Part shown: piece after piece, positions 31,001-51,701 of the stretch | Layout: each line of letters begins with the position of its first letter | Numbering within the stretch: position 1 is the first letter of the stretch | Assembly: GCF_003856835.1 (NCBI RefSeq) | Contig: NZ_CP034145.1 | Span: 1,860,001 to 1,924,000, forward strand | Direction: 5' to 3' | Source of the DNA: Haloplanus aerogenes | Lineage (GTDB): Archaea; Halobacteriota; Halobacteria; Halobacteriales; Haloferacaceae | Length of the DNA stretch: 64,000 bases | The notes under the pieces: generated by a model | Databases searched by the model: none | Seen by the model: only the letters and a program-made list of their open reading frames with translations | Told to the model about the DNA's origin: nothing | Position numbers and translations under genes: made by a program

Positions 31001-32898
31001 GCCTGATTGCCGAGCCGACCACGCGGCCGATACACGTACTCCAACACGAACTCCACGCTCGGGATCTCCACTGGAAGCTCACTGTCCTCCGGTGGGATGT
31101 ATAGCTCAGTTTCAGCCGCACAGACCCGTGTTACCGTTCCGCCATCCGTTGAGACTGAAACCGGAACGAGTGGATGGTTTCGCGCGTTCACTCTGAACCG
31201 CTCTTGTTCGTCGTCATCAAGCTGCAGCCAAACCGCTGTAAGTAACTCGACGACTGGATCCGTCGCCGTTCGTTGCGGGCCTGGTGGGTACCGGTCGATA
31301 TCTCTCCACGTCTCCGGTAACTGTGGAATTAACTCTGGAAGGTGAACGACCGATAATTCAGTCGCACCAAGCGTATGCAGCACCGCCGGCACGTGATTGT
31401 GCTCCTTGCTTAATAACGAGGCTGCCGGGAAATACCCGTATACATCTCCGTCAGCGACATCCACCGGTGAGCCATCCCAGTGCGCAACGAAATCTACGAG
31501 CGCCTCACGCGCCTGCGCAAGGTGCGACGGAAGTAGAATATCCTCTGGAGCCACATACACTGATTCACTGTCTCTTCCTGCTAAGGGAACACACGATACC
31601 TCGGCAAACTCCGCTTGAATCGCACGAATAAGCTCATCTCGGAAGGTATGCTCCTCCCGCGTTGCAGGATCAGCCCATGCTGTGAAATCAATACATGATA
31701 ACAACTCAGACGCCGTCGTCGCTGTATTACGCGCCACGGCCGCAGCATCCGACGCAAGGATATTCGCAGCTTCACGAATCAAGAACCGGTTATAGTCCAT
31801 CTCCCGATTCGTCAGCTCAATCGCCGTCCGCGACAAGTTCGAATCGAATGCCCCGTTGATCAACACTGGTACGGGCGAGCGTTCCTCCGTCGGTAAGAAC
31901 ACATGCGCATACGGGTCTCCTGCAACTGGCCGCAGGTGTAACCCGTCCTCACGTCGCTCTGCGCGCAACGCAACACTCACCTGTGTCTCTGTGACCTCCC
32001 CCCACGTATTGTTCGAAATCCCCGCTGTATGCTCCCCCAGCGGTAACTCATTCCGTGCGAACCGAAGATACGTCCGGTTATCTGTCTGTTCAGCCGTCCG
32101 TTGGATCTTCACCAGATCAACAGTCGAATTCACTGCGTCAATCGCTGTTTCATGCCGGGCCACATCCCACGCCGTCGCCGACCCATCGATAGCGATCTCT
32201 AACCGCCCGAGGTTCTGCAAGAACAGCACTGTTTGGGCATCTAGATCTTCGAGTGACTGTCGAACACTCGTGACAGCGTCCGTCCGTAGCGGGAAATAAA
32301 ACACAGTTTCATACTCACCTGTCAGCAGGGTCTCCACACGCTCCGGGTACTGATCCGGTGCGAACGGCAACCGCATCAGCGGAATCCCTGGAAGATCATC
32401 CATCGACCACTCGTCTACCTCCGCGATTACCTCACTGATGCACTCACGTGACCGTTCCCGGTCGAACATAAACGAAACATCTGTCGAGAACACGTACGGC
32501 TGCTCCGTAATCTCAAGTACTGCACTGAATCCTCGACCCTTATGCCCGATAGTTGCTTTCCGCTCGGCGTCACGCTTTGTCGTATCCCCAATCGCAGTCA
32601 ATGCCCGCGTATCGTCCGCATCAACCGGCATCCCAGAATTCGCAACAATCAGATACGGGTCATCCCCAGTCTGTAACTCGAACCGAGCTGTGCGTGGATT
32701 CTCCCCGTCTACCTTGCCTACCGCATCGTCAGCGTTCTGAATCAGCTCATACGCGAACCGGCCATAGTAATTCTCCTCGTTCTCACCCTCATCAGTATAA
32801 TGGGATAAAATATCGTTCGGCATCTCACGATAGGTATTTAGTCGAGACTCACGCAAATCCCGCACACAGGTCGCTTCCGATTCCCCGGAAACCTTCAT
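28018..32898 (-). CDS. Giant sacsin-type GHKL ATPase with NO VEIN (DUF3883)-like C-terminus
   Basis: A 1626-residue protein. Residues about 20-230 are a sacsin/Hsp90-like ATPase: N box ELIQNADDA (51-59), G1 DPYLIVANSGMP (80-91), G2 TIGHKGRGFSAV (116-127). A long middle region of about 1000 residues has no domain I recognise. An acidic linker (about 1270-1460) precedes a C-terminal DUF3883-like domain with GFDLLTVNPETGEADRLIELKA, a PD-(D/E)XK-like core, then NEWTTARNEW and YYLYVIG. Start ATG 32898 was preferred to an upstream TTG; a TATA-like CTTTTATTT sits about 25 bases before it. It heads an operon with the AddAB-like genes. Confidence 0.82.
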   Translation of the reverse strand: MKVSGESEATCVRDLRESRLNTYREMPNDILSHYTDEGENEENYYGRFAYELIQNADDAVGKVDGENPRTARFELQTGDDPYLIVANSGMPVDADDTRALTAIGDTTKRDAERKATIGHKGRGFSAVLEITEQPYVFSTDVSFMFDRERSRECISEVIAEVDEWSMDDLPGIPLMRLPFAPDQYPERVETLLTGEYETVFYFPLRTDAVTSVRQSLEDLDAQTVLFLQNLGRLEIAIDGSATAWDVARHETAIDAVNSTVDLVKIQRTAEQTDNRTYLRFARNELPLGEHTAGISNNTWGEVTETQVSVALRAERREDGLHLRPVAGDPYAHVFLPTEERSPVPVLINGAFDSNLSRTAIELTNREMDYNRFLIREAANILASDAAAVARNTATTASELLSCIDFTAWADPATREEHTFRDELIRAIQAEFAEVSCVPLAGRDSESVYVAPEDILLPSHLAQAREALVDFVAHWDGSPVDVADGDVYGYFPAASLLSKEHNHVPAVLHTLGATELSVVHLPELIPQLPETWRDIDRYPPGPQRTATDPVVELLTAVWLQLDDDEQERFRVNARNHPLVPVSVSTDGGTVTRVCAAETELYIPPEDSELPVEIPSVEFVLEYVYRPRGRLGNQALPQAVQQRQNVIKQVWRPDSFQFEELVRTTVTPRVTETEPTERNAELEIRLLGVLEELGRETATPDAPLPLQDRYESQPLYRLCQVRVPTQNYGLCPAYRVYFGKEWAAELESSSVQGVFEAADIDAPLLVGPDELENRLAAAGFEWDEGLNSDAWKEFLQWLGVSPHLRLQSFFAPDEQRQFSETVAEGGVARPQNGASVLGELDEDEWDRYQTHLEAALDEMDAGRQKYDSIYAVNGFEYWPELRQAARDETTQTPVGEAVLNHLIEWWDPIFNEYREATLATHSVSGFGGRNSSSQSDGEFREVGTNLWLWQLQTSRWCPSTRGTVTPANAWDPPGAQANPFELGGQSLLPILRRDHDPAVYEAQPFLEELGIRQHLSAETFTPKDARTVCDGVVDVCTSGDVDIADSLRDIQPVYRQIQDLAPPVDEDVPDESPWTDARQELEDTELLCRVGDSFEFRAAGTVYFARSPSVRADYPFDQLPFFVLEEQRAARIGEYFGLTDFTAVITVDGEPIDERAGRTTTLVEHVSECAPAILCRLEAERPSQRLIDQDLTRMEAFLDRVTVVDEIEVTYTLNPIDADEVLEETTTTPFYLQSQYRGSVEERYPYIAYREHEREQWQLVARALCAYLDVTQFEGIDALLSASSTEERRRYLQYANAPAGSHALAHKRQRLHNDEETERRQFGTPSPMNHSTSDEVNEDAGGLEEDTESTSADATGDDDPEPSTEQSSTTRLYDAAELRVGNETISVEPTPTTDSEDEETSDLDEIDDVVSGKDERVLTETASSSRTRDQSTYDVEDLGVALAEAWEATRLRRDYDCSNPQEYVFRVDERHLVEEARQGNAATALQQLEENAGIPEHFPGFDLLTVNPETGEADRLIELKAATCRRRKPSVSWNEWTTARNEWVQQRDTPLYYLYVIGHLSKTTNPDPYIRTIANPFRLLDAQVEHDVSVTRSIQVDIDAFSKAGVDGVADPDPVVEIPVETETDIDE

Positions 32899-33003
32899 AC
32901 GGCTCTCCTGACATCCGGCCAAATAAAAGCTAGCCCGTACGACTCCTCGTCCGGTTCACGGGGAGATCAGTTTAATGAACATTGGTTGATAACGTCCCTA
33001 GTA
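32899..33003. promoter_or_regulatory. Divergent promoter pair
   Basis: A 105-base spacer between the giant ATPase gene (minus) and the PD-(D/E)XK-like gene (plus). The minus strand has CTTTTATTTGG about 25 bases before ATG 32898; the plus strand has GTTTAATG about 30 bases before ATG 33004. Both predict leaderless transcripts and allow joint control of the two units. Confidence 0.55.
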
Positions 33004-34179
33004 ATGGCAGCTACACTTACTGAACCTGCCGTTCTCGCTGCCGCAAAAGATACCCCCTACCCTGACCTCAACACGAGCCCCGACCACTACGCTGTCACGG
33101 AAACTCAGTTCACGAAATCCTCTTGGGGTGGATGGGACATTCCTGATGAACTGCGCCGACGCCTCGCGCCGTACAACACCATTCGACTCACGGACGGGGA
33201 ACCTGATCTCCTCGGCATCGGGATGCCTGCTCTCGAAGTCCTGAATGCCGACGCCGCAAGAACGCCGGTCACGGTAATCGAAGCGAAAGGCCACAACAGC
33301 GACCCGAGTGCCGCCGATGTCCGAACTGGAATCAACCAGGCGCACGGCCACTTGTCCGAAGTCAACATCGGGTACGTCGTCGCCCCCATCCAAAGCATCA
33401 CCGACCAGGCACGTGCACTGGCCAGAGAACTCAACATCGACGTCATCGGCGTCAAAAGCCCGCACGACGCAACGCTCATCGAACCTGCTCGCGTCACCGG
33501 CGTCGGCGACTTCTCCACCACTATCGACGCAATCCGGTTCCAAGCCACGACGCACCGACTCACCGAAGGCAGTTTCCCAGTCAATCATCCGAAGAACTAC
33601 CTCGGCTACGCACTCGCCCTCGCCGCAGATGGCGACACCCCTGACGTTTATTCCGAGCACGTAATCAACAGCGTATCCGGTGGCCGCCGCGGCGCAATCC
33701 TCCTCGGTCTCGTCGACAATCGACCGGACGGGAAGACACTCACGCACCTCGGTGCAGAAGTCGTCCGCTTTGCCCGCACCCAACACGGAACGGTCGATGC
33801 TGCACTCGACGAATTCGCCTCGTGGAAAGGCCGATCCACACCGTTCACCGACCTCGCCCCCCGCTGGGCGCAACTCGCCCGCTCAGTCGCCATCCAGTAC
33901 GACCCAACGCAACTCATCATCGAAGCACTCGAACGCCTCCACCAACGCGGCAGCAAACCCGCAACCATCGACGCCGTCGACGGCTTCCAGCCACCGAACG
34001 AACACTCGCAGGGTGTCCATCTGCGTCTTCTCGCTGACCTTGTTCAGGTCGCCGTCTTCACGCCGCCAGAGTCGGTACTCGTGGAGTTGCCGGCCCGTGA
34101 GGGTGTTGAGGTTCTCGATGTCCTTCTCGTGACACCAGCGTACGAAGTGCTGGAGCCGGTAGTTCTTCCCTTTGAGTGA
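33004..34179 (+). CDS. PD-(D/E)XK-like protein, C-terminus replaced by antisense integrase
   Basis: A 391-codon frame. Residues 60-100 contain EPDLLGIGMPAL and VTVIEAKGHN, a D...ExK pattern of the restriction-endonuclease-like fold, followed by INQAHGHLSEVNIGYVVAP, consistent with that fold's helix and strand. The natural protein seems to end or continue elsewhere after about residue 322 (near 33970): the remaining 70 codons are the complement of a tyrosine-integrase gene and have no independent sense. TTG 32986 is an alternative start, but ATG 33004 fits the promoter. Divergent from the defence-like operon. Confidence 0.65.
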   Translation: MAATLTEPAVLAAAKDTPYPDLNTSPDHYAVTETQFTKSSWGGWDIPDELRRRLAPYNTIRLTDGEPDLLGIGMPALEVLNADAARTPVTVIEAKGHNSDPSAADVRTGINQAHGHLSEVNIGYVVAPIQSITDQARALARELNIDVIGVKSPHDATLIEPARVTGVGDFSTTIDAIRFQATTHRLTEGSFPVNHPKNYLGYALALAADGDTPDVYSEHVINSVSGGRRGAILLGLVDNRPDGKTLTHLGAEVVRFARTQHGTVDAALDEFASWKGRSTPFTDLAPRWAQLARSVAIQYDPTQLIIEALERLHQRGSKPATIDAVDGFQPPNEHSQGVHLRLLADLVQVAVFTPPESVLVELPAREGVEVLDVLLVTPAYEVLEPVVLPFE

Positions 34180-34257
34180 GGCCTCGGCCAGTTCGTTCTG
34201 CTTGTCTTTGAGGTACAATTCGAGCGCGGTCTCGGGATCGATCGGTTCGAGATCCAT
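33883..34257 (-). pseudogene. Tyrosine integrase, N-terminal remnant
   Basis: From ATG 34257 the frame reads MDLEPIDPETALELYL, then LQHFVRWCHEKDIENLNTL, RQLHEYRLWRREDGDL and EKTQMDTLRVFVRWLEAV, the SAM-like core-binding domain of haloarchaeal XerC/D-type integrases. After about residue 96 (near 33970) it runs into the complement of the neighbouring gene and stops at 33883. The catalytic domain (R...HxxR...Y) is missing. It sits about 120 bases inside attR, the usual place for the island's own integrase. Confidence 0.85.
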
Positions 34258-34374
34258 AGTTGGTCGTTTCGAGTCAAGCGAATCCCACGAACACCGGTTA
34301 CCCACTATCCCGAACCAACTTCTACAGCGCCTGAGGCGGCCAAAATGAAGGGTAGTCACGTCCAATGACCAGGG

Positions 34375-34436
34375 CCTGCAGCGCCCATCGCCGAATTTTC
34401 GTTCGTAATCGCACGACAACGTCGGGATAATCGTCG
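34375..34436 (+). repeat. attR: right direct repeat of the island
   Basis: Matches 15788-15849 at 57 of 62 positions, in direct orientation, beginning CCTGCAGCGCCCATCGCCGA (20 of 20). The tRNA-Arg body is not present upstream of it, so only the 3' end was duplicated, as expected for the distal junction. Confidence 0.9.
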
Positions 34437-34439
34437 TGA

Positions 34440-34622
34440 TCAGTCCGGTCGTTCGGCGTCGTCCCTTGCGACGTTGCCCCGGTACTCCTCTGCCTGTAGC
34501 ACACTCTCGACGGCGCGCGTGTACGCCGCTTCTCGCCACGTTCGCGTCGCCTCCGACGCCGTCTTGATCGCCCGAAAATCGGCGACTGCTTCCCGGAGCT
34601 GTGTCGCCAATTTCTCACGCAC
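34440..34622 (-). CDS. Short helical protein or 3' end of a broken gene
   Basis: A 60-codon frame from GTG 34622, all predicted helix (KLATQLREAVADFRAIKTAS onward). The same frame is open upstream of a TAA at 34644-34646, where it reads a coiled-coil, SELKEQAEKIRKQKQQIARQ, then a Gln-rich run. The two halves may be one gene broken by that stop (CAA to TAA is a one-base change), or a small independent gene. No family recognised. It abuts attR. Confidence 0.4.
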   Translation of the reverse strand: MREKLATQLREAVADFRAIKTASEATRTWREAAYTRAVESVLQAEEYRGNVARDDAERPD

Positions 34623-34840
34623 CCGTTCCTCCGCCCGGGTCGATTACTGGAACATCGTTCGGGTCTGGGTCGATTCGCCCCCCTGCTGTTGTTGCATCTG
34701 TTGGAGTTGCCGAGCTATCTGTTGTTTTTGCTTCCGGATCTTCTCGGCCTGTTCTTTGAGTTCGCTCGTGTCGACGTCGAACGATGAAATTACTGATCGG
34801 GGGACGGGTCCTGTGAGAACCCGCTGCGACGGGGGACGGA

Positions 34841-35269
34841 TTACTCGTCCGGCTCGAATTCACGGGACTGGCTCTCGATCACGGCAGCGACATCGTCCAG
34901 CATTTCGCCGGCAGTCGCGACGACATCGTCGAGCGTGGCGATTCCGACGAGCCTGCCATCGTCGTCGACGACTGGAATCCGCCGAACCCGACCTTCGGCC
35001 ATCGTCGCAGGGAGGTCGACTGCCGTGGCATCTTCGTGAATTGTCACCGGATCCGGCGTCATGATATCCTCGGCAGTCAGCTCGGATAGGTCATCGTATC
35101 GGGCCACGGCGAGGGCGATGTCGCGGTCGGTGACGATACCGACCGGCTTGTCGTCCTCGGCGATCACGAGGTCGCCGAGTTCCTCGTCCAGCATCGTCCG
35201 AGCGAGGTCTTTGACTGACGCGTCCGTACTGGCCGTTACGACATCGACCGCGAGATTCTTGATTGGCAT
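34841..35269 (-). CDS. Two-CBS-domain protein
   Basis: A 142-residue stand-alone CBS pair, a module that binds adenosyl nucleotides and senses energy state. The two repeats are recognisable: VVTASTDASVKDLARTML...GIVTDRDIAL and IMTPDPVTIHEDATAVDL...VGIATLDDVV. Such proteins in haloarchaea usually bind a separate target; the divergent APC permease is the nearest candidate. Confidence 0.9.
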   Translation of the reverse strand: MPIKNLAVDVVTASTDASVKDLARTMLDEELGDLVIAEDDKPVGIVTDRDIALAVARYDDLSELTAEDIMTPDPVTIHEDATAVDLPATMAEGRVRRIPVVDDDGRLVGIATLDDVVATAGEMLDDVAAVIESQSREFEPDE

Positions 35270-35379
35270 AGTACACGCAGAAAGTTATTTTTCAGTTACA
35301 AATAGCCAGTCTGCTTCTATCAGTAGATGGGAATCTTGAGTCATGAAGAAGCCGAACCGAACAACGATTGTGACGTGAT

Positions 35380-36726
35380 ATGAATTCGCTTCGATCGCTC
35401 CTAACGCGGAGTCGACCGGGGAAACTCGGGTTACTGGAGGTCATCGCGATGGGCGTCGGTGGGATGGTCTCGGGCGGAATCTACGCCGTGCTCGGCGTCG
35501 CGATGGCACAGGCCGGGAACGCCGTCCCGATATCGTATCTCATCGCGGGCATCATCACGCTGCTGACCGCCTACTCCTATCTCAAACTCACTCTCCACTT
35601 TGGCGAGCACGGTGGCGTCTTCTCCTTCGTCGAGCACGTCGTCAACAGTCCGACGGTGGCTGCGTACGTCGGGTGGGTACTTGTTGTCGGCTACGTCGGC
35701 GTGATGGCGATGTACGCGTTTGCGTTCGGTGCATACACTCTCACGGCCGCCCGGGCAGTCTTCGGAATCGCGCTCCCACAGTATCTTCGTCCGATTATGT
35801 CTATCCTGATCGTCGCTGGCTTCGTCGGGCTCAACCTGAAGGGCGTCCGCGAAACGGGTCTCTTCGAGGACATCGCGGTGTACATCAAGATCGCGATTTT
35901 GCTCTCCCTCGCAGTCCTAGGGATCGTCTTCTACGACGGGAGCGTGACGGCTATCGACTTCTTCAGCGAGGGGGTCGTCACCCCGATCACCGGGTTTGCG
36001 ATCATCTTCGTCTCCTACGAGGGGTTTCAGCTGCTGGTGTATGACTACGAGGACATCGAGAACGTAGAGCGAGTGTTACCGGTCGGGATGTACGTCGCCA
36101 TCGCCATCGCGATCCTGATCTACGTCTCGGTCTCGTTCATGGCGATGCTTCACCTGACGCCCGAGCAGCTCGTGGCTCACGAGGAAGTGGCACTCGCCGA
36201 AGCGGTCTCTCATATCCCGGTTCTGGGTGCCGCCGGGTTCGTCCTCGTTATTCTCTCGGCGATGAAGAGCACCTCCTCGGGGATCAACGCAACCCTCTTC
36301 GGAACGGCGCGGCTCGTCCACAAGCTCTCGACGGAGGGGGCACTTCCTCGGGCTTTTTCGTTCCGAAATAGGGAGGGAATTCCCGTGTATGCGCTTCTCG
36401 TCATGGGCGGGCTCACAGCCGCGTTCGCCGCCCTCGGCTCGCTCAAGCAGATTACCGAGTTTGGCTCTGTCGCATTCCTTCTCTCGTTCGCCGTCACGAA
36501 CTACACGAACCTCCGGCTCGGCGACGTGACAGGGTCGAACCGGCTCGTTCCCGCGCTCGGCCTCGTTGGAACGGGCGTCGCGATCCCGATCGTCCTCTAT
36601 CACCTCTATCTCACCGACGTCGGAATCCTACTCTGGATCCTCGGCATTTTCGTCTCGATCTTTCTGCTCGAATTCCTCTATCTGGAGCGGAGTCCTTTCG
36701 ACCCCGATGTCGAAAGCGATGGCTGA
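35380..36726 (+). CDS. APC-family amino acid/polyamine permease
   Basis: A 448-residue integral membrane transporter with about 12 hydrophobic segments. It opens with LGLLEVIAMGVGGMVSGGIYAVLG, the TM1 glycine-rich break typical of the amino acid-polyamine-organocation superfamily, and has AYSYLKL, TM6-like GFAIIFVSYEGFQLLVYDYEDIEN and STSSGINATLFGTARL in TM8. Substrate unknown. Upstream and divergent is a CBS pair that might regulate it. Confidence 0.88.
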   Translation: MNSLRSLLTRSRPGKLGLLEVIAMGVGGMVSGGIYAVLGVAMAQAGNAVPISYLIAGIITLLTAYSYLKLTLHFGEHGGVFSFVEHVVNSPTVAAYVGWVLVVGYVGVMAMYAFAFGAYTLTAARAVFGIALPQYLRPIMSILIVAGFVGLNLKGVRETGLFEDIAVYIKIAILLSLAVLGIVFYDGSVTAIDFFSEGVVTPITGFAIIFVSYEGFQLLVYDYEDIENVERVLPVGMYVAIAIAILIYVSVSFMAMLHLTPEQLVAHEEVALAEAVSHIPVLGAAGFVLVILSAMKSTSSGINATLFGTARLVHKLSTEGALPRAFSFRNREGIPVYALLVMGGLTAAFAALGSLKQITEFGSVAFLLSFAVTNYTNLRLGDVTGSNRLVPALGLVGTGVAIPIVLYHLYLTDVGILLWILGIFVSIFLLEFLYLERSPFDPDVESDG

Positions 36727-36735
36727 TCGGTCTAG

Positions 36736-36921
36736 AGCCGACTCGTCGACCGATCTGGGAGCCCAGAACGTCTCGATCGAGTCGAAGGAACCGATGACCT
36801 CTACTACGACACGGTCGTTCTGACCGAGGAGATCGGCCCCAGAAACGTCGATGACGAGGGGTACGTCCGCCAGGAACCGGAGCTCGTTCGTCGGATGGTG
36901 TCCGAGATGGAGATCTACTGA
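36736..36921 (+). pseudogene. C-terminal coding remnant
   Basis: A 62-codon open frame without a plausible start. It reads SPERLDRVEGTDDLYYDT and ends with EPELVRRMVSEMEIY before a TGA at 36919-36921. The acidic, well-formed C-terminus suggests the tail of a degraded gene or of an extension once attached to the permease. No family identified. Confidence 0.4.
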
Positions 36922-36933
36922 GTCATACTGTTT

Positions 36934-37015
36934 ATTGTAAGTCATTACCGGTGGTTCGCCGGACTGTTTCGGCGAACCACCGGTACACAGTTACAATAAT
37001 CCGTATCAGTCGATG
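36934..37015. repeat. Long palindromic hairpin (possible MITE or bidirectional terminator)
   Basis: Nested inverted repeats. The inner stem is ACCGGTGGTTCGCCG against CGGCGAACCACCGGT (15 perfect pairs) around loop GACTGTTT. The outer arms are TTATTGTAA and TTACAATAA, extended imperfectly by ACTCATACTG-like and CCGTATCAGT-like ends. It lies between a coding remnant and the end of a convergent gene. The long, layered arms look more like a miniature inverted-repeat element than a simple terminator. Confidence 0.75.
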
Positions 37016-37051
37016 GGACTGTAGTCCGACGGTGGCGGACGAATCCGCGGA

Positions 37052-37696
37052 TCAGGACGGCGATTCGAGATACGCCATCGCCTCTTCGTCGGAGACCTGA
37101 TCGAATCGCTCGTAGAACTGTCCGACCCCCATGAAGTTGCTCGGCGTCTCGAGACAGATCACCTCGTCGGCCAACTCCCGTAACTCGCGAACGGTGTCGG
37201 GCGGTCCAACGGGGACTGCCAGCACGATGCGATCGGCGTCGGTCTGCCGGAGCATCTCGAGGCACGCTCTGACGGTCGAGCCCGTGGCCACGCCGTCGTC
37301 GACGACGGCGACGGTCTTGCCGTCCAGGTCGGGCTCGGAGCGTTCGCCCCGGTAGCGCTCGGCTTTCTGACGCGCGTTCTCGGCTTCCTTCTCCCGCTCC
37401 TGTTCGAAGTATTCCTCATCGGATCCCGTCCCACGAAACGCCCTTTCATTGCGCCAGACGCTCCCGTCGCTGGCGACGGCACCGATGGCATACTCCGGGT
37501 TGCCTGGCGCGCCGATCTTCGACGCGACGACGATATCGAGCGGAACGTCGAGCATGTCGGCAACGGCTCGTCCGAGCGGAAGGCCACCTCGCGGGATCGC
37601 GAGCACGATATCCACGTCGATCTCTCGCTCGCGGAGTACTTTTCCGAGTTGCTCGCCAGCCTCAGTCCGGTCCGTGAATCGGGACGCGTTTGGCAT
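37052..37696 (-). CDS. Phosphoribosyltransferase-family protein (copy 1)
   Basis: A 214-residue type I PRTase-fold protein. It has the LAIPRGGLPLGRAVAD entry, ASKIGAPGNPEYAIGAV, and the PRPP-binding loop TVAVVDDGVATGSTV. It closely resembles the gene at 62733-63371. This group is often fused or adjacent to alpha/beta hydrolases and erythromycin esterases; here a hydrolase gene is divergent next door and an esterase homologue lies 5 kb away. The base or other acceptor is unknown. Confidence 0.88.
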   Translation of the reverse strand: MPNASRFTDRTEAGEQLGKVLREREIDVDIVLAIPRGGLPLGRAVADMLDVPLDIVVASKIGAPGNPEYAIGAVASDGSVWRNERAFRGTGSDEEYFEQEREKEAENARQKAERYRGERSEPDLDGKTVAVVDDGVATGSTVRACLEMLRQTDADRIVLAVPVGPPDTVRELRELADEVICLETPSNFMGVGQFYERFDQVSDEEAMAYLESPS

Positions 37697-37802
37697 GCGT
37701 TCTCGATAAAACGAGATGCCACAGCCGCCTGTAACATGTGATTATTCTCACAAAATCGGAATGCCCGTGGAAATAATACCCACGGCAGGTGTCGGGCTCA
37801 CT

Positions 37803-38444
37803 ATGTCCCAGCCGACCGAGAATCTCGCACGTATTCCGGTCGAAGATGTCGAACTCGAGGGAATGCTCGATATTCCGGACGGGGCGGAGGGACTGGTGGT
37901 CTTCGCCCACGGGAGCGGATCGAGTCGGAAGAGCCCGCGCAACAACTTCGTGGCGGCGGTCATCCGCGAACGCGGGCTCGGAACCCTCCTGTTCGACCTC
38001 CTGACCGAAGAAGAGGACCAGATCCGAGAGAATCGGTTCGACATCCCGTTGCTGACGGATCGGCTCGTTGCCGTCACCGAGTGGCTGAATACGCGTGATG
38101 CTACTCGTGATCTGAACGTGGGCTATTTCGGATCTAGCACGGGTGCGGCGTCCGCCCTCCGAGCAACGGCTCGGCTGGAAGACGAGATCGATGCAGTCGT
38201 CTCGCGTGGAGGACGCGTCGATATGGCATCGGAGGTTCTCGACGAAATCACAGTGCCGACGCTGTTTATCGTCGGCGGCGCGGACACGCAGGTGCTCGAA
38301 CTCAACCGCGAGGCCTACGACCAGCTCGCCTGCGAGAAGGAATTACACGTCGTCGAGGGCGCTGGGCATCTCTTCGAGGGCGAGGGTGAGCTCGAAGAAG
38401 TCGCGGACGTAGCGGCCGACTGGTTCGCCGAGTCGCTACGGTGA
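37803..38444 (+). CDS. Alpha/beta hydrolase (dienelactone-hydrolase-like)
   Basis: A 213-residue cytosolic hydrolase. It shows the oxyanion segment FAHGSGSSRKSPRN, the nucleophile elbow GYFGSSTGAASAL (G-x-S-x-G with Ser), the acidic residue in LFIVGGADTQVLEL and the His in VVEGAGHLFEG. ATG 37803 is chosen over upstream alternatives because homologues start close to the EDVELEGMLDIP strand. Divergent from the phosphoribosyltransferase gene, with which such hydrolases are often fused in other genomes. Confidence 0.87.
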   Translation: MSQPTENLARIPVEDVELEGMLDIPDGAEGLVVFAHGSGSSRKSPRNNFVAAVIRERGLGTLLFDLLTEEEDQIRENRFDIPLLTDRLVAVTEWLNTRDATRDLNVGYFGSSTGAASALRATARLEDEIDAVVSRGGRVDMASEVLDEITVPTLFIVGGADTQVLELNREAYDQLACEKELHVVEGAGHLFEGEGELEEVADVAADWFAESLR

Positions 38445-38600
38445 ACGCGAACCGCCTCGGAGGTAAACTCCGGGGCGTGCGACTCGGCTGCCCGTCGTCG
38501 TATGCTCAGAGTGTCCACCCAGTGGATCAGACACACCGACATTCCAAGGTATTGGGAAAAATATACCATATCAAGAGCACTGCGGGATCCAGAGGCACAC

Positions 38601-38813
38601 ATGGACAAGAACGTGGGCGGAATCGATCGAACTGGCCGCATCGTCGTGGGCATCGTGATAGCGATAGCGGGTATAGCCGCACTTACCGGCTACTGGACTG
38701 CTGGAGCGGTGATCGGAGGGGTCGCTCTCGTTATCGGAGCGATCCTCCTCGTGACCGGAACGACACAAAAGTGTCCCATCAACGAGGCCGCAGGCATCGA
38801 CACGACCGAGTGA
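38601..38813 (+). CDS. YgaP-like (DUF2892) small membrane protein
   Basis: A 70-residue protein with the family start MDKNVGGIDRTGR, two transmembrane helices (IVVGIVIAIAGIAAL and VIGGVALVIGAILLVTG) and the conserved end CPINEAAGIDT. ATG 38601 fits this start; TATA-like ATATACCATATC lies about 30 bases upstream. Function unknown, frequently near rhodanese or stress genes. Confidence 0.87.
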   Translation: MDKNVGGIDRTGRIVVGIVIAIAGIAALTGYWTAGAVIGGVALVIGAILLVTGTTQKCPINEAAGIDTTE

Positions 38814-38945
38814 TCGACGCTCAGTAGCCAGAACCCGACGCGCCGCACCGATCGGAAAGAATCGGGCCACTCGGAGGAAAGAGCCGTCCCGACCGAGCCG
38901 CTGGTCAGCCGCCAGCGGGGACGTTCGGGACGCCGTCCTGCTCCG

Positions 38946-39884
38946 TCACGCCGACAGCGCCTCGTCCAGTCGCGTCTCGAGGTTCAGAAGTTCCTCGCGC
39001 AGTTCCGCGGCCGTCTCGTCGTCCTCCAGCTCCTCGATTCGTTCCGCGAGCCCTTGCAGTCTGGCGTACTTCTCGTCCTCTTCGACCTCGGTTTTCTGGA
39101 CGTAGACCTGTTCCTCGACGTCGTACACCTCGTCTTCCTCGAGATCGGTCGCGGTCAAGACGATGTCGAGTTTGTCGGGATCGATCCCGAGCACCCATTC
39201 ACGGGGAATGTCGTGCTCGTTCAGAGCGTCGAAAATCGTCTCGTCGCCCTTCGGTCGTCGGCGTTCGCGTGTCGTCCGGCGGACCGTACCGAACCGGCCG
39301 TGTAACTCCTGATCCGGACCGAGGCGGCTCAGAAGCGCCTCTCGAGCCGTCTGTCGGAGGCGATCGGCCTCGTGTTGCACGTCCGAGAGAAGGACGTACA
39401 GATCGGTTAGTGTGTCCGTCTCGAGTGTCTCGGGAGCGACGGGGTCCGACGTATCGAGCAAGTCTGCCAGTAGGAGCGCATCATCGTGGAGGCGCTCCGG
39501 CCGAGTGCGTGCTTCCGCCGGCGAACGGAGATACGGACTTCCCCCGCCCGTCTCGGGATCGGGGACGTAGGCGATTGCGTCGTCCTCGACGCCGAAGTCG
39601 GCCAGCAGCGTCAAGACCGTCGTGTACGGTTCGACACCGGGTGGGAGTTCGGACACTGCGAGTCGACGTTCCTCTAAGCGATCGGCAAGAACCGCGAACT
39701 GCTCGCGCCAGAGAAAACGCTTCTCGCCGCTATCGTCGAAGCGAATCTGGAGGTGGTTGGCCGTGATCTCCCTGACTCGAAACGGTCGGTTCGAGAGCGG
39801 CGTCACCAGTTCGGTTCCTGGCTCTAGGGCTGCACACCGTTCTTGGACGGCGTTCCAAAGTTCTTCGTGTTCGGTGATCTCCAT
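38946..39884 (-). CDS. Uncharacterised haloarchaeal protein, coiled-coil C-terminus
   Basis: A 312-residue soluble acidic protein. The N-terminal 60 residues form a beta-rich unit (PLSNRPFRVREITANHLQI RF pattern), the middle is helical, and the last 60 residues are a coiled coil (KYARLQGLAERIEELEDDE). No catalytic motif or membrane segment is visible and I cannot name the family. ATG 39884 is preferred because the frame upstream adds an unrelated hydrophobic stretch. Confidence 0.7.
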   Translation of the reverse strand: MEITEHEELWNAVQERCAALEPGTELVTPLSNRPFRVREITANHLQIRFDDSGEKRFLWREQFAVLADRLEERRLAVSELPPGVEPYTTVLTLLADFGVEDDAIAYVPDPETGGGSPYLRSPAEARTRPERLHDDALLLADLLDTSDPVAPETLETDTLTDLYVLLSDVQHEADRLRQTAREALLSRLGPDQELHGRFGTVRRTTRERRRPKGDETIFDALNEHDIPREWVLGIDPDKLDIVLTATDLEEDEVYDVEEQVYVQKTEVEEDEKYARLQGLAERIEELEDDETAAELREELLNLETRLDEALSA

Positions 39885-40065
39885 ACTAGATGTGCGGTTT
39901 TGAGGTAAAAAAACGTGTACCTGAAGTGGGAAGCGCTGTTTTTCCACTGTCCAGATCGATTCGGTCGCTCATCACGAGTGGCGTCGTCGAACCGTCGTCC
40001 CCTTTTTCGTACAATGGGAAAGGGTACGTCGATTCATATTGGCACTCGACCAACAGGTCGGTCGT

Positions 40066-40575
40066 ATGAACTTCGACGAATTCACCGGCACGGTACAACA
40101 TCGACTCGAATTACCCGGTACCGGCGAGACTCTCCGGGCGATCCGGGCAACACTGATGACACTCGGTCAGCGTCTTCCCGAGGGCAACGCCGAAGATCTC
40201 GCCGCGTCGCTCCCCTTAGAGATCAAGTGGTATCTGACCGGCGCGGTCCACGAACACGGCCAGCGCTTCGACTGGCAGGAATTCGTCTCGCGTGTCAGTG
40301 AAATCGAACAGGCCGACCCGGCCGACGCGGCCTACCACGCTCGCGTCATCGTCGACATCGTACAGACGCTGGTCCCGGGGTCGGATTTCCAGCAACTGCG
40401 CGATTTGCTCCCCGAAAGCGAGGACGACGAAAACTGGCGCAAGCTTTTCGAAATCGTCGATGCCGGCGGATGGAGCGAAGCCGCAGAGGCCCAGACAGGT
40501 GGCGGTCCTCAACCCGACGCGACGAGTCGAGACGAACTCGAAGATGCGGATCGTGGCTCCGACCCACCAGAGTAA
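40066..40575 (+). CDS. DUF2267 protein
   Basis: A 169-residue protein whose first 130 residues match DUF2267: MNFDEFTGTVQHRLEL, ETLRAIRATLMTLGQRLPEGNAEDLAASLP, and EFVSRVSEIEQ. The region may hold two copies of the helical unit. The tail is acidic and low-complexity. Family members are associated with stress and phosphate-related loci, but function is unknown. Confidence 0.87.
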   Translation: MNFDEFTGTVQHRLELPGTGETLRAIRATLMTLGQRLPEGNAEDLAASLPLEIKWYLTGAVHEHGQRFDWQEFVSRVSEIEQADPADAAYHARVIVDIVQTLVPGSDFQQLRDLLPESEDDENWRKLFEIVDAGGWSEAAEAQTGGGPQPDATSRDELEDADRGSDPPE

Positions 40576-40665
40576 GCCGTAACTCCGATCATCACTGGCG
40601 AAAATCCATATTTCGAGCGATTGGCAATGGTCCCTTACGCGCTCGGCCCAACGAATATCGTGAGT

Positions 40666-40749
40666 GGTGGGATGACGGAGTGGACTATCGTGCCTGCTTG
40701 GAAAGCAGGTGGCCGAGAGGCCTCGTGGGTTCGAATCCCACTCCCACCG
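40666..40749 (+). tRNA. tRNA-Ser (anticodon GGA)
   Basis: An 84-base class II tRNA: acceptor GGTGGGA/TCCCACC with discriminator G; D stem ACG/CGT; anticodon stem CCTGC/GCAGG around TTGGAAA, giving GGA; long variable arm with GGCC-GAGA-GGCC; T arm GTGGG-TTCGAAT-CCCAC. I see no second copy of its 3' end in the window. Confidence 0.93.
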
Positions 40750-40957
40750 TATCGGGCGCTGGCCAGTGTTTCTGACAGCATCTATCCGTGCGCAATTATC
40801 CATACCTCCCAAATTTCGCCTCACCGCCGACAGCGGCGAAGGATGTTCGGACCGACAGAAACGTGAACGGTAGCGAGCGCGAGCGGAATATCGCAGAGAT
40901 GTGGATACTTCGTTCGGAGAGATAGACGACGGGCGATTAGACACGGAGACGCGTTCG

Positions 40958-41206
40958 TTAGCGCATTTCGTCGAGTGGGACGAACGATCCATCCGTAGCG
41001 GCAATCCACTCGGTCTCCAGCATCCGCTCGCTCCTCGGCAGCGGCGATATCGAGCACCTCTCCACGTCGTCAGCTTGTTCTGTGATGTTCGCCACGAACG
41101 CTTCGTCGTGTGCTGGCTGGAATGGCTCCCAGTCGTCTGATTCAGTCGGGACGGAACTCATCGTTATCACCTCGTGTTCGATAGCGTCGATTTCGCAGAG
41201 GGACAT
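40958..41206 (-). CDS. DUF7511-like small haloarchaeal protein
   Basis: An 82-residue acidic protein. The end, ETEWIAATDGSFVPLDEMR, resembles the T-x-W-I/L-T-A-x-x-x-S-F-V-x-L-x-E-x-R signature I associate with a haloarchaeal family (DUF7511). A TATA-like CGATATTTTT near 41229 is about 25 bases before ATG 41206, which decides this start over the internal ATG at 41161. Function unknown. Confidence 0.6.
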   Translation of the reverse strand: MSLCEIDAIEHEVITMSSVPTESDDWEPFQPAHDEAFVANITEQADDVERCSISPLPRSERMLETEWIAATDGSFVPLDEMR

Positions 41207-41347
41207 TGGACCTAGCCTCACAAAAATATCGTATCCGATTACAACTCGCTGGGACTCCCCCGGCGTGTTCCGTACCTGTACAGCACTGTCGCAGTGAAAT
41301 TAGGGGAGAGTACCGATCTTCAGCGGTGCGACAGGAGCCACGGGTCG

Positions 41348-42559
41348 TCATTCGAGCATCCAGCCGAAGCGTTTCTCCCAGAACTCCTCGGTCGGGGGCT
41401 TCTTACTTTCGCCGTACGTCTTGCGATCACGAATCTGTCGTTCGAGCACGTCGCGTGCCTCGTTGAGTGCGTGACTCGCCCCGTAGCCTTCACCGGAGGC
41501 GATGTACAGTCCTCGATCGGTGTGCAGGCGGATGCGGGCAAGCAGAAGAGGCGTCCCTCGAAGTTTCTCGTCGTGTTCGTGAAGGTGGATCTTCGCGTCT
41601 AGAACGGACATCCCGTGGTCACGGTCGTCGAACTTCTCGATCATCGCCACGACGTCCTCGTATTGCACGTCGTCCAGCAAATCGGTGCCATAGACTTGGA
41701 CGGCTCGATTGCCGCCAGCCTCCCACGTGAGCGAATCGAGGATGTCGGTCTTCGTGACGATACCGAAGGGCCGGCCGTCTTCCGTGACGACGAGCGACGA
41801 TCCGCCGATGGCGAACATCTCCTCGACGGCCGTCTCGAGTGTCGCGTCCGGGTGAATCGTGCGTACCGGCGAGACCATGACGTCTCTGACCGGGAGATCC
41901 AAGATGCGGGCGAGTTCCCCCTCCCGGGCACCGAAACCGCCGTGAGCCCGACCGGTACTGGCCGAAATGTCTCCACCGAACGAGTCCGTGCCACCTGCAT
42001 CGCCGCCTTGGCTCTGTTTCGCGGAACGAACCGTTAGATCGGTCACGTCGTAGAGACTCAGGATGCCAATTGCAGTGTCGTCCTCGACGACCGGGAGATG
42101 CGTGATCCGCTTCTTCCGGAACACGTGGAGTGCTTCACCGAAGGTCGACTCCGGATCGAGCGTGACGAGGTCGGCGGTGGAGGCCTCGGCGACGGTCGCC
42201 GCGTCGAGAAACGGCTGGACTTTCTCCAGAATCGCATCGACGGTGACGACGCCCGCTAGTTCGCCCCCGTCGAAGACCGGGAGGAGCTGTGCGTCGCTGT
42301 CGATCATGAGCTGGGCAACCTTGCGGATGTCCTCGTCGGGGGCGAGTCTGGGGACGTGCCAGACGAGCGAACCGACCTTTTCGTCGGGTTGGTGGTGCGA
42401 GGTGGCGAGCTGTCTCCTCGTGACGATTCCCTCGAATTCATCGCCGTGTACGACGACCCCCTTGACGGTCGGATCGTCGAACGCACCGACGAGCTTCGAC
42501 ACGGGCGTGTCCGGTGAGAGCGCTACGTACTCTTCCGAGACGATATCGGCAATTTCCAT
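41348..42559 (-). CDS. Four-CBS-domain protein with HPF-like C-terminus
   Basis: A 403-residue protein. Four CBS repeats are visible (starting near VSEEYVALSPDTPVSKL, VPRLAPDEDIRKVAQL, ADLVTLDPESTFGEAL and MVSPVRTIHPDATLET). A Gly-rich linker separates repeats three and four. The last 110 residues, with SVLDAKIHLHEHDEKLRG and SHALNEARDVLERQI, resemble the ribosome hibernation factor (HPF/YfiA, sigma-54 modulation) fold. This suggests energy-state sensing coupled to ribosome silencing. ATG 42559 begins directly at the first CBS repeat; a GTG at 42631 would add 24 residues. Confidence 0.82.
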   Translation of the reverse strand: MEIADIVSEEYVALSPDTPVSKLVGAFDDPTVKGVVVHGDEFEGIVTRRQLATSHHQPDEKVGSLVWHVPRLAPDEDIRKVAQLMIDSDAQLLPVFDGGELAGVVTVDAILEKVQPFLDAATVAEASTADLVTLDPESTFGEALHVFRKKRITHLPVVEDDTAIGILSLYDVTDLTVRSAKQSQGGDAGGTDSFGGDISASTGRAHGGFGAREGELARILDLPVRDVMVSPVRTIHPDATLETAVEEMFAIGGSSLVVTEDGRPFGIVTKTDILDSLTWEAGGNRAVQVYGTDLLDDVQYEDVVAMIEKFDDRDHGMSVLDAKIHLHEHDEKLRGTPLLLARIRLHTDRGLYIASGEGYGASHALNEARDVLERQIRDRKTYGESKKPPTEEFWEKRFGWMLE

Positions 42560-42869
42560 GGCTGTGAGTGGTGTCCGCTTCGGCTGATTGTCGGTCGCGT
42601 CGGCCGTAATCGTGGTGCTGACAAGTACCACTTCGCCAGAGATTCACAAGTATTCGCCGGAGGTTCCCGATATCTGAAAAGCGACGTACAGGGGTCGTCG
42701 CGGGACGAATTGCCCCGGCGACTACTCCTAGCACCCATCCATGCTGGCCGACACGTGCGACGGTGTATCGTCGCCCGAGAGGGCACCTGCGTTAGCAGGA
42801 GAAATTTGAAGACGGCCCGAAGACGCCCAGTACGAGTGCTCCAGTGAGCGCCCGACGGGAGAACCCCGG
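42560..42869. other. Intergenic stretch without a gene
   Basis: About 310 bases upstream of the CBS-HPF gene and beyond the end of the erythromycin-esterase gene. The first 72 bases could be coding if the GTG start is used. Nothing else recognised. Confidence 0.4.
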
Positions 42870-44204
42870 TTAGAATCCCCACGGGTACAGATCCGGGATC
42901 GCCTCGACGTCGGCGTGGACATCGAGCGGATGGAGGGCGCTCGTCTCGTCGAAATACATGAATGCATCATATCGTTCGGGAAGAACCGTCGGCACGTAGT
43001 TCCCCGCCTCGTGAGCCGGGTGATACACGACACCGATGGCGCGATGACCCCGAGGTCGGGTGAGCGGTGAGTCGTCGGGAAGCTCCCCGGTTACGAGGAA
43101 ACAGTCGCCTCCACCCGCCTGCTCGAAGACGTGTTCGTAACTTCCCTCCTGTGCGGGTGGGACTGTCATCTCCTCCAACCGTGCGCCCCACGAATCCGCG
43201 GCGATCACCGTGCCCTGGTGTGAACCCATACCAATCAATGCCACGTCGGCCCTGCCTTCGTGCTCGCGAACGAGTTGGCCGACATTGAGCCGTCCCCGCG
43301 CCTCCATGTCAGTCGCTCTGGCGTCGCCGATGTGGGTGTTGTGCGCCCAGACGATGCCCTTGCTGTCCGATCCGTGATGCTTCTGCAAACGCTCCAGCGT
43401 TTCGACCATGTGTCGGTCCCGGATGTTCCAGGAGTCGACCTCGCCACGAACCATCTCTCGGTAGTACTGTTCGGCGTTTTTTGCGACCAAGGCGTTCTGT
43501 TCGGCGTTGAAGTAGTCATCGCGGCTGTGATCGTACGCTGCGACCTGCTCGCGGAGCCGCGTCAACATTTCTACCACCTCGTCCTCGCAGGTCTCGGGAA
43601 CCATCCGGAGCGCCCGCGCGTACTCCTGTGCGTCTTCACCGTACGGTTCGAAACACCGGTAGGCGGCCCTGGCCTCGGCTGCTGCATCCGGGTCTACGTC
43701 CTCGAGATAATCAACGACTGCGTCCATCGACTCGAACAGGCTGTACACGTCGAGGCCGTAGAACCCGATTCGGTCGTCTTCGGGGAGTCGCTGGTTGTGA
43801 AGCTCCAGCCAATCGAGGAACTCGAGGGCCTCCCAGTTCGCCCACATCCATGTCGGCCACCGTTCGAACGCCTCGAGAGCGTCGCGGATCGTCTCGGGAG
43901 ACACCGAGAGACCCTTGACGTACCGATTGACCTCGTAACAGTTCGTCCAGTCACCTTCCACAGCGACGAACGAGAAATCTTTCTCTTGGACGAGTCGGGC
44001 CGTCAGTCGGGCGCGCCAGCGGTAGTACTCCGAGGTACCGTGCGAAGCCTCGCCCAGCAACACGTACGTTCGATCTCCGAATTGCTCGACGAGACGATCC
44101 AGATCGGAGGGCTGTTCTAGTCCGTGTGTCGTCGAGCGGACGTCGGCGACGGCCGCGTCGATGTCGCCCGGTTCGGTCCACGACGTGCGATCCTGGAGCC
44201 TCAT
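42870..44204 (-). CDS. Erythromycin esterase family protein
   Basis: A 444-residue hydrolase-like protein of the EreA/PF05139 family. Conserved parts are LLGEASHGTSEYYRWR (the metal/catalytic His), FVAVEGDWTNCYEVN, MWANWEALEFLDWL and VWAHNTHIGDARA. In bacteria EreA opens macrolides, but most family members have unknown substrates. In some actinobacteria the family is fused to the phosphoribosyltransferase type found twice in this window. The small antitoxin-like gene lies nine bases upstream and may be co-transcribed. Confidence 0.88.
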   Translation of the reverse strand: MRLQDRTSWTEPGDIDAAVADVRSTTHGLEQPSDLDRLVEQFGDRTYVLLGEASHGTSEYYRWRARLTARLVQEKDFSFVAVEGDWTNCYEVNRYVKGLSVSPETIRDALEAFERWPTWMWANWEALEFLDWLELHNQRLPEDDRIGFYGLDVYSLFESMDAVVDYLEDVDPDAAAEARAAYRCFEPYGEDAQEYARALRMVPETCEDEVVEMLTRLREQVAAYDHSRDDYFNAEQNALVAKNAEQYYREMVRGEVDSWNIRDRHMVETLERLQKHHGSDSKGIVWAHNTHIGDARATDMEARGRLNVGQLVREHEGRADVALIGMGSHQGTVIAADSWGARLEEMTVPPAQEGSYEHVFEQAGGGDCFLVTGELPDDSPLTRPRGHRAIGVVYHPAHEAGNYVPTVLPERYDAFMYFDETSALHPLDVHADVEAIPDLYPWGF

Positions 44205-44213: not shown

Positions 44214-44444
44214 CTACACCGACCCCTCGTCGACGCGCTTGCGTCCCCGCTCGTTTATGCTGTCGGCGAGTTCCTGTACGTCGCTCTCGGTGAGTTCGCT
44301 CTCGCCCGTGAGTTCGTCCATCACTTCGAGCGCCTCGATTTTCTCTTGGATGACCTGCCGCGTCACCTCACTCCAGTTGATTTCGGGGTGGTTCTCCATG
44401 CGCTCTTTGCGGTTGCCGTCCACGTTGACCGTGATCGTGGGCAT
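44214..44444 (-). CDS. Orphan VapB-like antitoxin
   Basis: A 76-residue protein starting MPTITVNVDGNRKERMENH and continuing INWSEVTRQVIQEKIEALEV, the strand-helix-helix pattern of the haloarchaeal VapB family, with an acidic C-terminal tail (ESELTESDVQEL). In intact modules a PIN toxin overlaps the 3' end; here the next gene is the erythromycin esterase nine bases away and no PIN gene is present. ATG 44444 is favoured over 44462 because family members begin MPTI. Confidence 0.8.
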   Translation of the reverse strand: MPTITVNVDGNRKERMENHPEINWSEVTRQVIQEKIEALEVMDELTGESELTESDVQELADSINERGRKRVDEGSV

Positions 44445-49119: not shown

Positions 49120-50004
49120 ATGTTCGACAAACTCCTCTTTCCCACCGACGGGAGCGACGGCGCGGCCGCCGTCTTCGATCACGTCCTCGACGTGGCCGAG
49201 GCCCACGACGCGACGGTCCACGTCCTCAGCGTCGCGGACACGACCCGCGAGAGCGTCACGCAGTTCCGCGGGCAGGTCGTCGACGCCCTCGAACAGGCCG
49301 GCGTCCGGACCGTACAGGAGGCGGCCGGGCGCGCCAGCGACCGCGGCGTCCCGACCGTCACCGAGGTCATGCAGGGCGAACCGTACCGCACCATCGTCGA
49401 CTACGCCAACACCTACGACATCGACCTCGTGATCATGCCGACCCACGGGCGGCGAGGACTGGACCGCTTCCTCCTCGGGAGCACGACCGAACGAGTCGTC
49501 CGGCGCTCGGACGTACCCGTCCTGACGATCCGTCCGGACGACGACGTGACCGTCCGGTATCCGTACCGGAACGTGTTGGTACCGACGGACGGGAGCGATC
49601 CGGCCGACGCGGCGCTGAACATCGGCATCGACGTGGCGAACACCGCGTCGGCCGCCCTCCACCTCGTCTCGGTCGTGAACGTGACGAGTCTGGGCGTCGA
49701 CGTCCGCACCGATATCCAGACGGCGGCGCTGGAAGAGAACGCCGAAGGGATTCTCGACGCGGCCGCGGGTCGGGCGCGCGAGGCCGGGATCGCCCCCGCC
49801 GCCACCGCCGTCGAGTTCGGCGGGTCCGTCTCGCGAACCGTCCGAACGTACGTCACGGACCACGATATCGACCTCGTGATCCTGGGCACCCACGGCCGGA
49901 CGGGATTCGACCGATACGTCCTCGGCAGCGTCACGGAACAACTCGTTCGAACGGCGCCGGTGCCGGTGCTGACGGTGCGAGGAGCCCCCGACTCACAGTC
50001 CTGA
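49120..50004 (+). CDS. Tandem universal stress protein
   Basis: A 294-residue protein of two UspA domains, 1-145 and 148-294, each starting with the FPTDGSD / VPTDGSD turn and ending with the ATP-binding G-x-x-G-(9x)-G-S/T motif ([34 protein letters not shown]). ATP-binding type by motif. A TTTTTTAT stretch at 49090-49095 serves as TATA-like element about 27 bases before ATG 49120. It precedes the globin transducer. Confidence 0.92.
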
Positions 50005-50111
50005 ACTCTCGCGTCAGTCGCTCGACTCCGCGTTTCCTCCGCTTCCGGCGCCAATTATCAGACGCTGGAGTCAGTGGACACACTTATTTTATGGAATTGA
50101 CGACGGCAGGT

Positions 50112-51701
50112 ATGGACGACTACGGGACCGTATTCGGTCAGGGTGCGCTGAACGCCCAGCTCTCCACCGACGACCTCATGCGCGAGTGCGGACTGGACGA
50201 ACGGGAAATCGAGTGGCGAAAGAATTTCATCAGTTTCGACGAGACCGACGCTCGTCGGCTCTCGGATCTGGAGTCGGTGTTTCGCGATCACTCGGAGCAG
50301 ATCGCCGAGGACTTCTACGACAACCTCACCGCGTACGACCAGACGACCAACGTGATCGGCCGGTCGGAGAAGGGTATCGAGCAGCTAAAACGGACCCAGT
50401 CGGCCTATCTGGTCACGCTGGCCAGCGGCGACTACGGGCAAGACTACTTCCGCAACCGCGCCCGCGTCGGCAAACTCCACGACATGCTGGAGATGCCGAT
50501 GAAACAGTACATCGGGCAGTACGGCGTCTACTACGACCTGCTCGTTCCGCTGTTGTTCGACCGCCTCGAAGACCGACTGGTCGATCGAGTGACCGACGAG
50601 ACGGCGGCGACTGACGAGACGGCCGTCGAGGAGGCCGTGGAGTCGGCGCTCGACGTGAGTCGGGAGGAACTGCTCGCAGTCCTGCGAATCATCAACCTCG
50701 ACATGCAGGTGGTGGCGGACACGTACATCCACTCCTACAGCCAGAAACTGGAGAACGCCCTCGACGAGCGCGAGCGCCTCATGGCCGAGGTCGAGCGTGA
50801 TCTGGCCGAGCCGATGGGCGAGTTGCGCGACTCCGCGGAGGAAGTGGCCGAGCGGACGACCGCTATCGACGACCGGACGGACGAACAGGTCGACGCGATG
50901 TCCGACGTGGCGAGCGAGGTGTCGAACATGAGCGCGACGGTCGAGGAAATCGCGTCGACGGCGGACGAAGTGGCGTCGACCAGCGAGCGAGCGGAGGCGC
51001 TGGCTGCCGACGGTCGGGAGGCGGCGACCGAGTCCATCGAGGTGATGGAGCGGGTGAGCGAGTCCTCGCGCGACGCCGCGACCGATGTCGACGACCTCGA
51101 GGACCGGATCGACGAGATCGACGAGATCGTCGAGGTGATCAACGACATCGCGGATCAGACGAATCTGCTGGCGCTGAACGCGTCCATCGAGGCGGCACGG
51201 GCGGGCGAGGCGGGCGACGGCTTCGCGGTCGTCGCCGACGAGGTGAAAGGGCTCGCCGAGGAATCCCAGCGCCACGCGAGCGACATCGAGACGATGGTCA
51301 CGGATATCAAAGCCGAGACGGCGGCGACGGTTGAGAGCCTCGAACGGACGACCGACGAGATCGATCAGGGAATGGCCCAGATCGAGGCGGCGATGACGAA
51401 GCTCCAAGAGATCGTCGACGCCGTTCGCGACGCCTCACAGGGAATCAGGGAAGTGTCCGAGGCGACGGACGATCAGGCCGCCTCGACCGAAGAGGTCGCC
51501 AGCATGATCGACCAACTCGTCGATCAGACCGAACGCGTGTCGGCGGAGATCGAAGGGGTCGCGGCGGCCAACGAGGAACAGACCGCCCGCATCCGCGACA
51601 TCGACGAGACGATCCGACGGCTCGGCAACGACGAGACGGATCGCCCATCCGAGAGCGACGACGCGGTGAACCCCGGCGCTGCGAGCGTCAATCTTCAATA
51701 G
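50112..51701 (+). CDS. hemAT: Soluble globin-coupled transducer HemAT
   Basis: Aerotaxis receptor of 529 residues without membrane spans. Residues about 15-185 are a sensor globin; the proximal haem ligand is H123 in [10 protein letters not shown]. The rest is a methyl-accepting signalling rod with the hairpin tip [24 protein letters not shown] and further heptads. It should sense O2 and drive CheA. ATG 50112 is chosen because TTATTTTATGG lies about 25 bases upstream; the ATG at 50091 overlaps that TATA-like element. No che genes are next to it, so it must signal to distant partners. Confidence 0.93.

Follow-up and report, generated by a model that had tools for sequence, protein, structure and literature searches.

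In the chromosome of the haloarchaeon Haloplanus aerogenes, a stretch of 64,000 nucleotides (NZ_CP034145.1, positions 1,860,001 to 1,924,000; hereafter the window, numbered from its first letter) holds an interval at 37052-44204 with genes for a phosphoribosyltransferase (PRT1), an alpha/beta hydrolase (HYD), a protein with four CBS domains (CBS4) and a hydrolase of the erythromycin-esterase superfamily (ERE). We found that genes of the PRT, HYD and ERE families lie together more often than chance predicts, or are fused, in eight bacterial phyla and in the haloarchaea. We therefore read the interval as the core of a stress island containing a widespread PRT-HYD-ERE module, whose products would form a three-enzyme stress pathway linked to phosphoribosyl pyrophosphate (PRPP), and give this reading a probability of roughly 0.6. 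The families named here by an earlier reading of the window from its sequence alone were borne out by matches to Pfam models and to relatives of known structure (Table 1).

Scanning genome contigs with a PRT alignment yielded 80 bacterial loci from many phyla, 44 of which had HYD or ERE within 2.6 kb of PRT (HYD in 29, ERE in 27, both in 12). These came from Actinomycetota, Pseudomonadota, Planctomycetota, Cyanobacteriota, Acidobacteriota, Verrucomicrobiota and Gemmatimonadota and, on plasmids, from Deinococcota. Gene order varied (PRT-HYD-ERE, PRT-ERE-HYD, HYD-PRT-ERE and ERE-HYD-PRT), and the families were found not only adjacent but also directly fused, as PRT-ERE in actinobacteria and Bradyrhizobium, as PRT-HYD in Rhodococcus and Nocardia, and as all three domains in one Rhizobium protein. 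Across 50 bacterial genomes, 23 of 30 HYD and 18 of 26 ERE genes lay within 4 kb of a PRT, with fewer than 0.1 expected; because these genomes were chosen for having PRT, the statistic tests location and not presence. Of the 80 loci, 6 had a PRPP synthetase gene no more than 2.5 kb from PRT, and no control region did, counting only matches of at least 150 amino acids that did not overlap PRT; a count of 21 of 80 was rejected because it was inflated by cross-matches to PRT's own PRPP loop. In Sphingobium, Rhodococcus and Salinirubellus, too, the synthetase adjoins PRT or HYD or lies close to one of them.

Co-occurrence, which the sequence-only reading had proposed as its check, also held among 145 haloarchaeal genomes that were sampled irrespective of PRT. 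These contained 10 PRT-HYD pairs within 10 kb, spread over 10 genomes, where 0.28 were expected, and 6 PRT-ERE pairs where 0.07 were expected. All 40 HYD-bearing genomes had PRT, compared with 95 of the 145 overall (p = 1e-9, ignoring kinship). On the haloarchaeal PRT tree, 10 changes are needed to account for HYD or ERE next to PRT; adjacency has thus been gained or lost repeatedly. Since the three genes keep company, in some cases as fusions, in archaea and in eight bacterial phyla, the three proteins probably share one pathway, in which they would act on one small molecule. The literature that we found describes neither the trio nor any linkage among the three families.

All three proteins look like active enzymes. 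PRT1 keeps both hallmarks of the type I phosphoribosyltransferase fold, the PRPP loop (VDDGVATGS) and the pyrophosphate loop (PRGG), and residues Arg36, Asp133, Asp134, Thr138 and Gly139 are at least 99% conserved among 152 members of the family. Against the NCBIfam models for phosphoribosyltransferases of known base (Apt, Hpt, PyrE and Upp) and for GfcR, PRT scored at best 19-38 bits, with cut-offs of 107-300, and so fell short of every base-specific family there. HYD is similar to the structure 2o2g over its full length and has the Ser-Asp-His triad of that subfamily (Ser112 in 41 of 42 sequences, Asp161 and His189 in 42 of 42). In ERE the conserved residues are Glu52, His55, Glu83, His288 and His291; against the NCBIfam models of the EreB and EreD macrolide esterases it reached 31.9 bits (cut-off 750) and 32.1 bits (cut-off 800), about 24-fold short in bits.

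The closest relative of PRT1, an 88% identical protein, is encoded on a 337-kb plasmid of the Haloferacaceae archaeon XH8. This plasmid is collinear with window positions 34820-42708 at 76-85% DNA identity, in the order CBS pair, permease, PRT1, HYD, YgaP-type protein, 312-amino-acid protein, DUF2267, tRNA-Ser(gga) and CBS4 (CBS pair 84% and permease 76% at the DNA level, YgaP-like 89% at the protein level), and it adds Usp (universal stress protein) genes and a nitroreductase-like gene, neither of which occurs in the corresponding stretch of the window. The 312-residue protein, U333, is 81-84% identical in the XH8 and Salinigranum islands; the DUF2267 gene is also found in both of these and in locus L062; and CBS4, 75-92% identical, lies near PRT1 or ERE in loci L058, L062, L083, L086 and L293. 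The Salinigranum plasmid carries DUF5828-ERE-CBS4-antiporter-Usp-DUF2267 together with the 312-residue protein, a Salinirubellus plasmid has PRT with CBS, Usp, nitroreductase, HYD and PRPP synthetase, and a Natrinema plasmid has PRT with CBS, Usp, nitroreductase, Hsp20 and an M50-CBS protease. The tRNA-Ser(gga) gene occurs on a haloarchaeal plasmid (L294, 19573-19658) in the same island position as in the Haloplanus chromosome, beside DUF2267. It was rejected as an attachment site: the window has no second copy, and the same tRNA stands in the XH8 island. Given these collinear and similar gene sets on several haloarchaeal plasmids, we take the interval to be the central part of a recurrent stress island that megaplasmids of related genera also carry. 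This island is wider than the interval drawn by the sequence-only reading, which omitted the CBS pair, the permease, the YgaP-type, 312-residue and DUF2267 proteins and the tRNA-Ser, as well as the nearby Usp and protoglobin transducer, yet it is not one operon.

In the pathway that we propose, PRT would move a 5-phosphoribosyl group from PRPP to an acceptor or back, and HYD and ERE would open ester- or lactone-type bonds in the same compound, most likely while nucleotide-like metabolites are being salvaged or repaired in cells that do not grow. CBS4 and Usp, members of adenylate- or ATP-binding families, would plausibly report the energy state, and Hsp20 would be part of the same quiescence programme. 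Both the use of PRPP and the role in resting cells are what we infer, and low oxygen, carried over by analogy from mycobacteria, may be the trigger. To the further proposal that the trio is an unrecognised PRPP-dependent pathway making, recycling or repairing a nucleotide-like metabolite for survival without growth in haloarchaea and many bacterial phyla, we give slightly less than an even chance.

Several observations weigh against a shared pathway. At the thresholds used, 53 of the 95 PRT-bearing haloarchaeal genomes had neither HYD nor a close ERE orthologue, so PRT must also work by itself. No ERE is seen in the XH8 island. The window has one, which lies 5 kb and one tRNA gene away from PRT1 and HYD, so that the three do not form a single operon. 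ERE is also fused to PCMT (protein-L-isoaspartate methyltransferase) in Sinorhizobium, as confirmed with Pfam, which points to other partner chemistry. Fusions of this type stand at L088 7353-9329 and L087 7251-9245, the Rhizobium one being so by annotation.

Table 1. Features of the island and of related genes in the window
Feature	Position	Strand	Family and remarks
CBS-domain pair protein	34841-35269	-	Left island end; PF00571, 90 bits
Amino-acid permease of island	35380-36726	+	PF13520, 121 bits
PRT1	37052-37696	-	Type I phosphoribosyltransferase, 1wd5/TT1426 family; PF00156, 73 bits; 1wd5, 142 bits
HYD	37803-38444	+	Serine alpha/beta hydrolase, 2o2g subfamily; 2o2g, 207 bits, full length; reading frame opens at 37716, likely start ATG 37803
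YgaP-like membrane protein	38595-38813	+	Reading frame opens at 38502; PF11127, 60 bits
U333	38946-39884	-	Conserved haloarchaeal protein, 312 residues; no Pfam match
DUF2267 protein	40039-40575	+	Conserved part from about 40054; PF10025, 114 bits
tRNA-Ser(gga)	40665-40750	+	ARAGORN; conserved inside island
CBS4	41348-42631	-	Four CBS domains; PF00571, 128 bits
ERE	42870-44204	-	Erythromycin-esterase-superfamily hydrolase; PF05139, 414 bits
Double Usp	49120-50004	+	PF00582, 215 bits; outside island proper
Cytochrome bd oxidase genes	59916-62379	+	
PRT2	62706-63371	+	PRT1 paralogue; PF00156
Hsp20	63467-63910	+	PF00011, 74 bits; 95 bp downstream of PRT2

Within the window PRT1 and HYD are divergent, with 106 bp between them, and ERE is 5.2 kb from PRT1. 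The genome has two PRT genes, both in the window, two HYD genes and a single ERE, beside which stands a REC-PAS-PAS-HATPase kinase. An antitoxin-like open reading frame encoding 76 amino acids (44214-44444, minus strand) ends 9 bases before ERE; it reached the cut-off of no Pfam model, and a toxin partner was not seen. The DUF5828 gene that occupies this place in other ERE islands was sought in the window and is absent. For U333, fold prediction gave a confidence (pLDDT) of only 44. Between the permease and PRT1 lies a palindromic repeat of about 90 bp (36915-37016) that recurs dozens of times in the genome (74-98% identity), and so looks like a miniature inverted-repeat transposable element or similar dispersed element. 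To the left of the island, an integrative element spans 15726-34442, with tRNA-Arg(tcg) at 15726-15800, an integrase-like gene at 33883-34539 (minus strand) and a 68-bp repeat at 34375-34442 that is 90% identical to the 3' part of that tRNA. To its right, the double Usp is directly followed by a methyl-accepting transducer with a protoglobin domain (49120-51701 for the pair; transducer at 50.1-51.7 kb), which is probably an oxygen sensor. Among the bacterial loci, a family comprising the protein at L144 8840-9865, which had no Pfam match, and a Sphingobium gene annotated as an AAA-ATPase recurs near PRT in seven (L084, L097, L102, L106, L140, L144 and L158); it may resemble the DosR-regulon member Rv2004c.

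The sequence-only reading had favoured a different explanation, a low-oxygen or dormancy pathway homologous to the mycobacterial DosR set, in which PRT1-ERE-CBS and PRT2-Hsp20-bd oxidase would be parts of one hypoxia response. We consider this unlikely. In its favour, genes for Usp, Hsp20, fused PRT-ERE, PfkB, Usp and a GAF-GAF-HisKA_3 kinase of the DosS/T type follow one another with the same orientation in mycobacterial loci such as L099, an order that presumably matches Rv2031c-Rv2027c of M. tuberculosis; a PRT-HYD fusion of Rhodococcus opacus has a GAF-GAF-HisKA_3 kinase, Hsp20 and CBS in its vicinity; and the Natrinema gene set described above also speaks for this reading. Haloarchaeal loci of the PRT1 clade carry varying subsets of Usp, CBS, nitroreductase, M50-CBS protease and Hsp20 (the M50 model cross-matches CBS domains, and its counts were not relied on), and the DosR-type family set (PRT-Ere, Hsp20, Usp, CBS, nitroreductase, PfkB and M50-CBS protease) exceeded random regions there (p = 0.02, for eight picked loci). 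Single loci such as L092 held most of these families. In the window itself, PRT2 and Hsp20 do lie next to bd oxidase (59916-63910), as had been described, and the protoglobin transducer is not far off.

Other results speak against it. In 40 unselected haloarchaeal PRT loci, compared with 39 random regions from the same group, stress neighbours were not enriched (Usp 8 versus 6, Hsp20 0 versus 1, CBS 3 versus 9; p = 0.91 for the whole set), so that the recurring combination stands for mycobacterial and PRT1-clade loci but not for haloarchaeal PRT loci at large; enrichment was limited to the PRT1 clade and actinobacteria, and was weaker in other bacteria (p = 0.012). PRT2, which had been taken for a near-copy of PRT1, is only 68% identical to it and is a paralogue on its own branch: the PRT1 clade has support of 100/99 on the haloarchaeal tree, and PRT2 branches apart from it with only G135, a gene of one congener. 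The pairing of PRT2 with Hsp20, real in the window, was missing in that no Hsp20 gene lay within 10 kb of the PRT2 orthologue of a congener (L072); three other haloarchaeal loci do have Hsp20 at most 1 kb away from PRT or ERE. Subunits of bd oxidase occurred near just 1 of 64 other haloarchaeal PRT or ERE loci. A DosS/T-type kinase was present in 6 of 14 mycobacterial loci and in none of the haloarchaeal ones, and the aligned PRT1-HYD intergenic regions of seven loci contained no conserved palindrome or other shared operator, although no motif search covered all island genes. Archaeal operators may be weak.

Two further explanations are each improbable in our view. In the first, PRT would act as a pyrophosphorylase that frees PRPP from nucleotides, and a reversed PRPP synthetase would make ribose-5-phosphate and ATP from PRPP and AMP in cells that do not grow; PfkB and enzymes of the thymidine-phosphorylase type would feed this route. 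Such energy salvage is consistent with PRPP synthetase beside PRT in several phyla, with PfkB and a thymidine phosphorylase family gene adjoining ERE-HYD-PRT in Sphingobium, and with PfkB adjoining PRT-ERE in mycobacteria. However, a thymidine-phosphorylase gene occurred in 1 of the 80 bacterial loci, the direction of the reaction is not readable from sequence, and the two hydrolases are given no role. In the second, the genes would be neighbours in an accessory stress island through joint selection and plasmid carriage, sharing no metabolic pathway; patchy distribution, mosaic gene content among islands and the location of several islands on megaplasmids would all fit, but repeated direct fusions in different pair combinations, the presence of PRT wherever haloarchaea have HYD, and clustering in eight bacterial phyla are not predicted. 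Least credible is detoxification, in which ERE and HYD would hydrolyse macrolide-like or other lactones or esters and PRT would inactivate by phosphoribosylation, since the superfamily membership of ERE and a weak match of HYD to the N-acyl-homoserine lactonase model (38 bits, cut-off 400) are set against the low scores of ERE with real macrolide esterases and against the neighbours of the module in the loci read, which were Usp, Hsp20, CBS and PRPP synthetase, not further resistance genes.

If PRT, HYD and ERE do form one pathway, Rv2030c and Rv0571c, two mycobacterial dormancy proteins described as uncharacterised, would be fused forms of it. Two unexplained proteins of tuberculosis dormancy would thereby gain partners that are conserved far beyond mycobacteria: an alpha/beta hydrolase, a hydrolase of the Ere type and, in some cases, PRPP synthetase. 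A list of induced genes would become a testable three-enzyme pathway, open to study in haloarchaea or soil bacteria. "Erythromycin esterase" is also a misleading name for members of this ERE group.

Among known structures, TT1426 (1wd5), 2o2g and the Bacillus cereus Ere-type proteins (2qgm, 2rad and 3b55) belong to the same fold families as PRT, HYD and ERE, respectively, and the literature that we found states no function for any of them. The lxa locus of Burkholderia cenocepacia (BCAM0275-0323; PMC6127331) is a large island of Usp and heat-shock genes, induced at low oxygen, and resembles the haloarchaeal island in that content. Rv2030c is, as the sequence-only reading had it, a PRT-Ere fusion of the DosR regulon (PMC7387457, PMC4410610; domains from PMC7387457), within the operon Rv2028c-Rv2031c (PMC4410610), and Rv0571c is a DosR-regulon PRT termed uncharacterised (PMC5309233). 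The window shares with that regulon the PRT and ERE families, and richer haloarchaeal islands add Hsp20, Usp, CBS, nitroreductase and M50-CBS protease. In contrast to the DosR operon, haloarchaeal PRT and ERE are separate genes with the hydrolase HYD as third partner, many PRT copies have no stress neighbours, and we found no DosR/DosS counterpart or DosR-type operator. Rv0571c, which presumably also contains a HYD domain, belongs to the PRT family and recalls the PRT-HYD fusions of Rhodococcus and Nocardia, whereas PRT1 and HYD are separate, divergent genes in the window. Judged by gene families, the resemblance to the DosR regulon is thus real, but partial.

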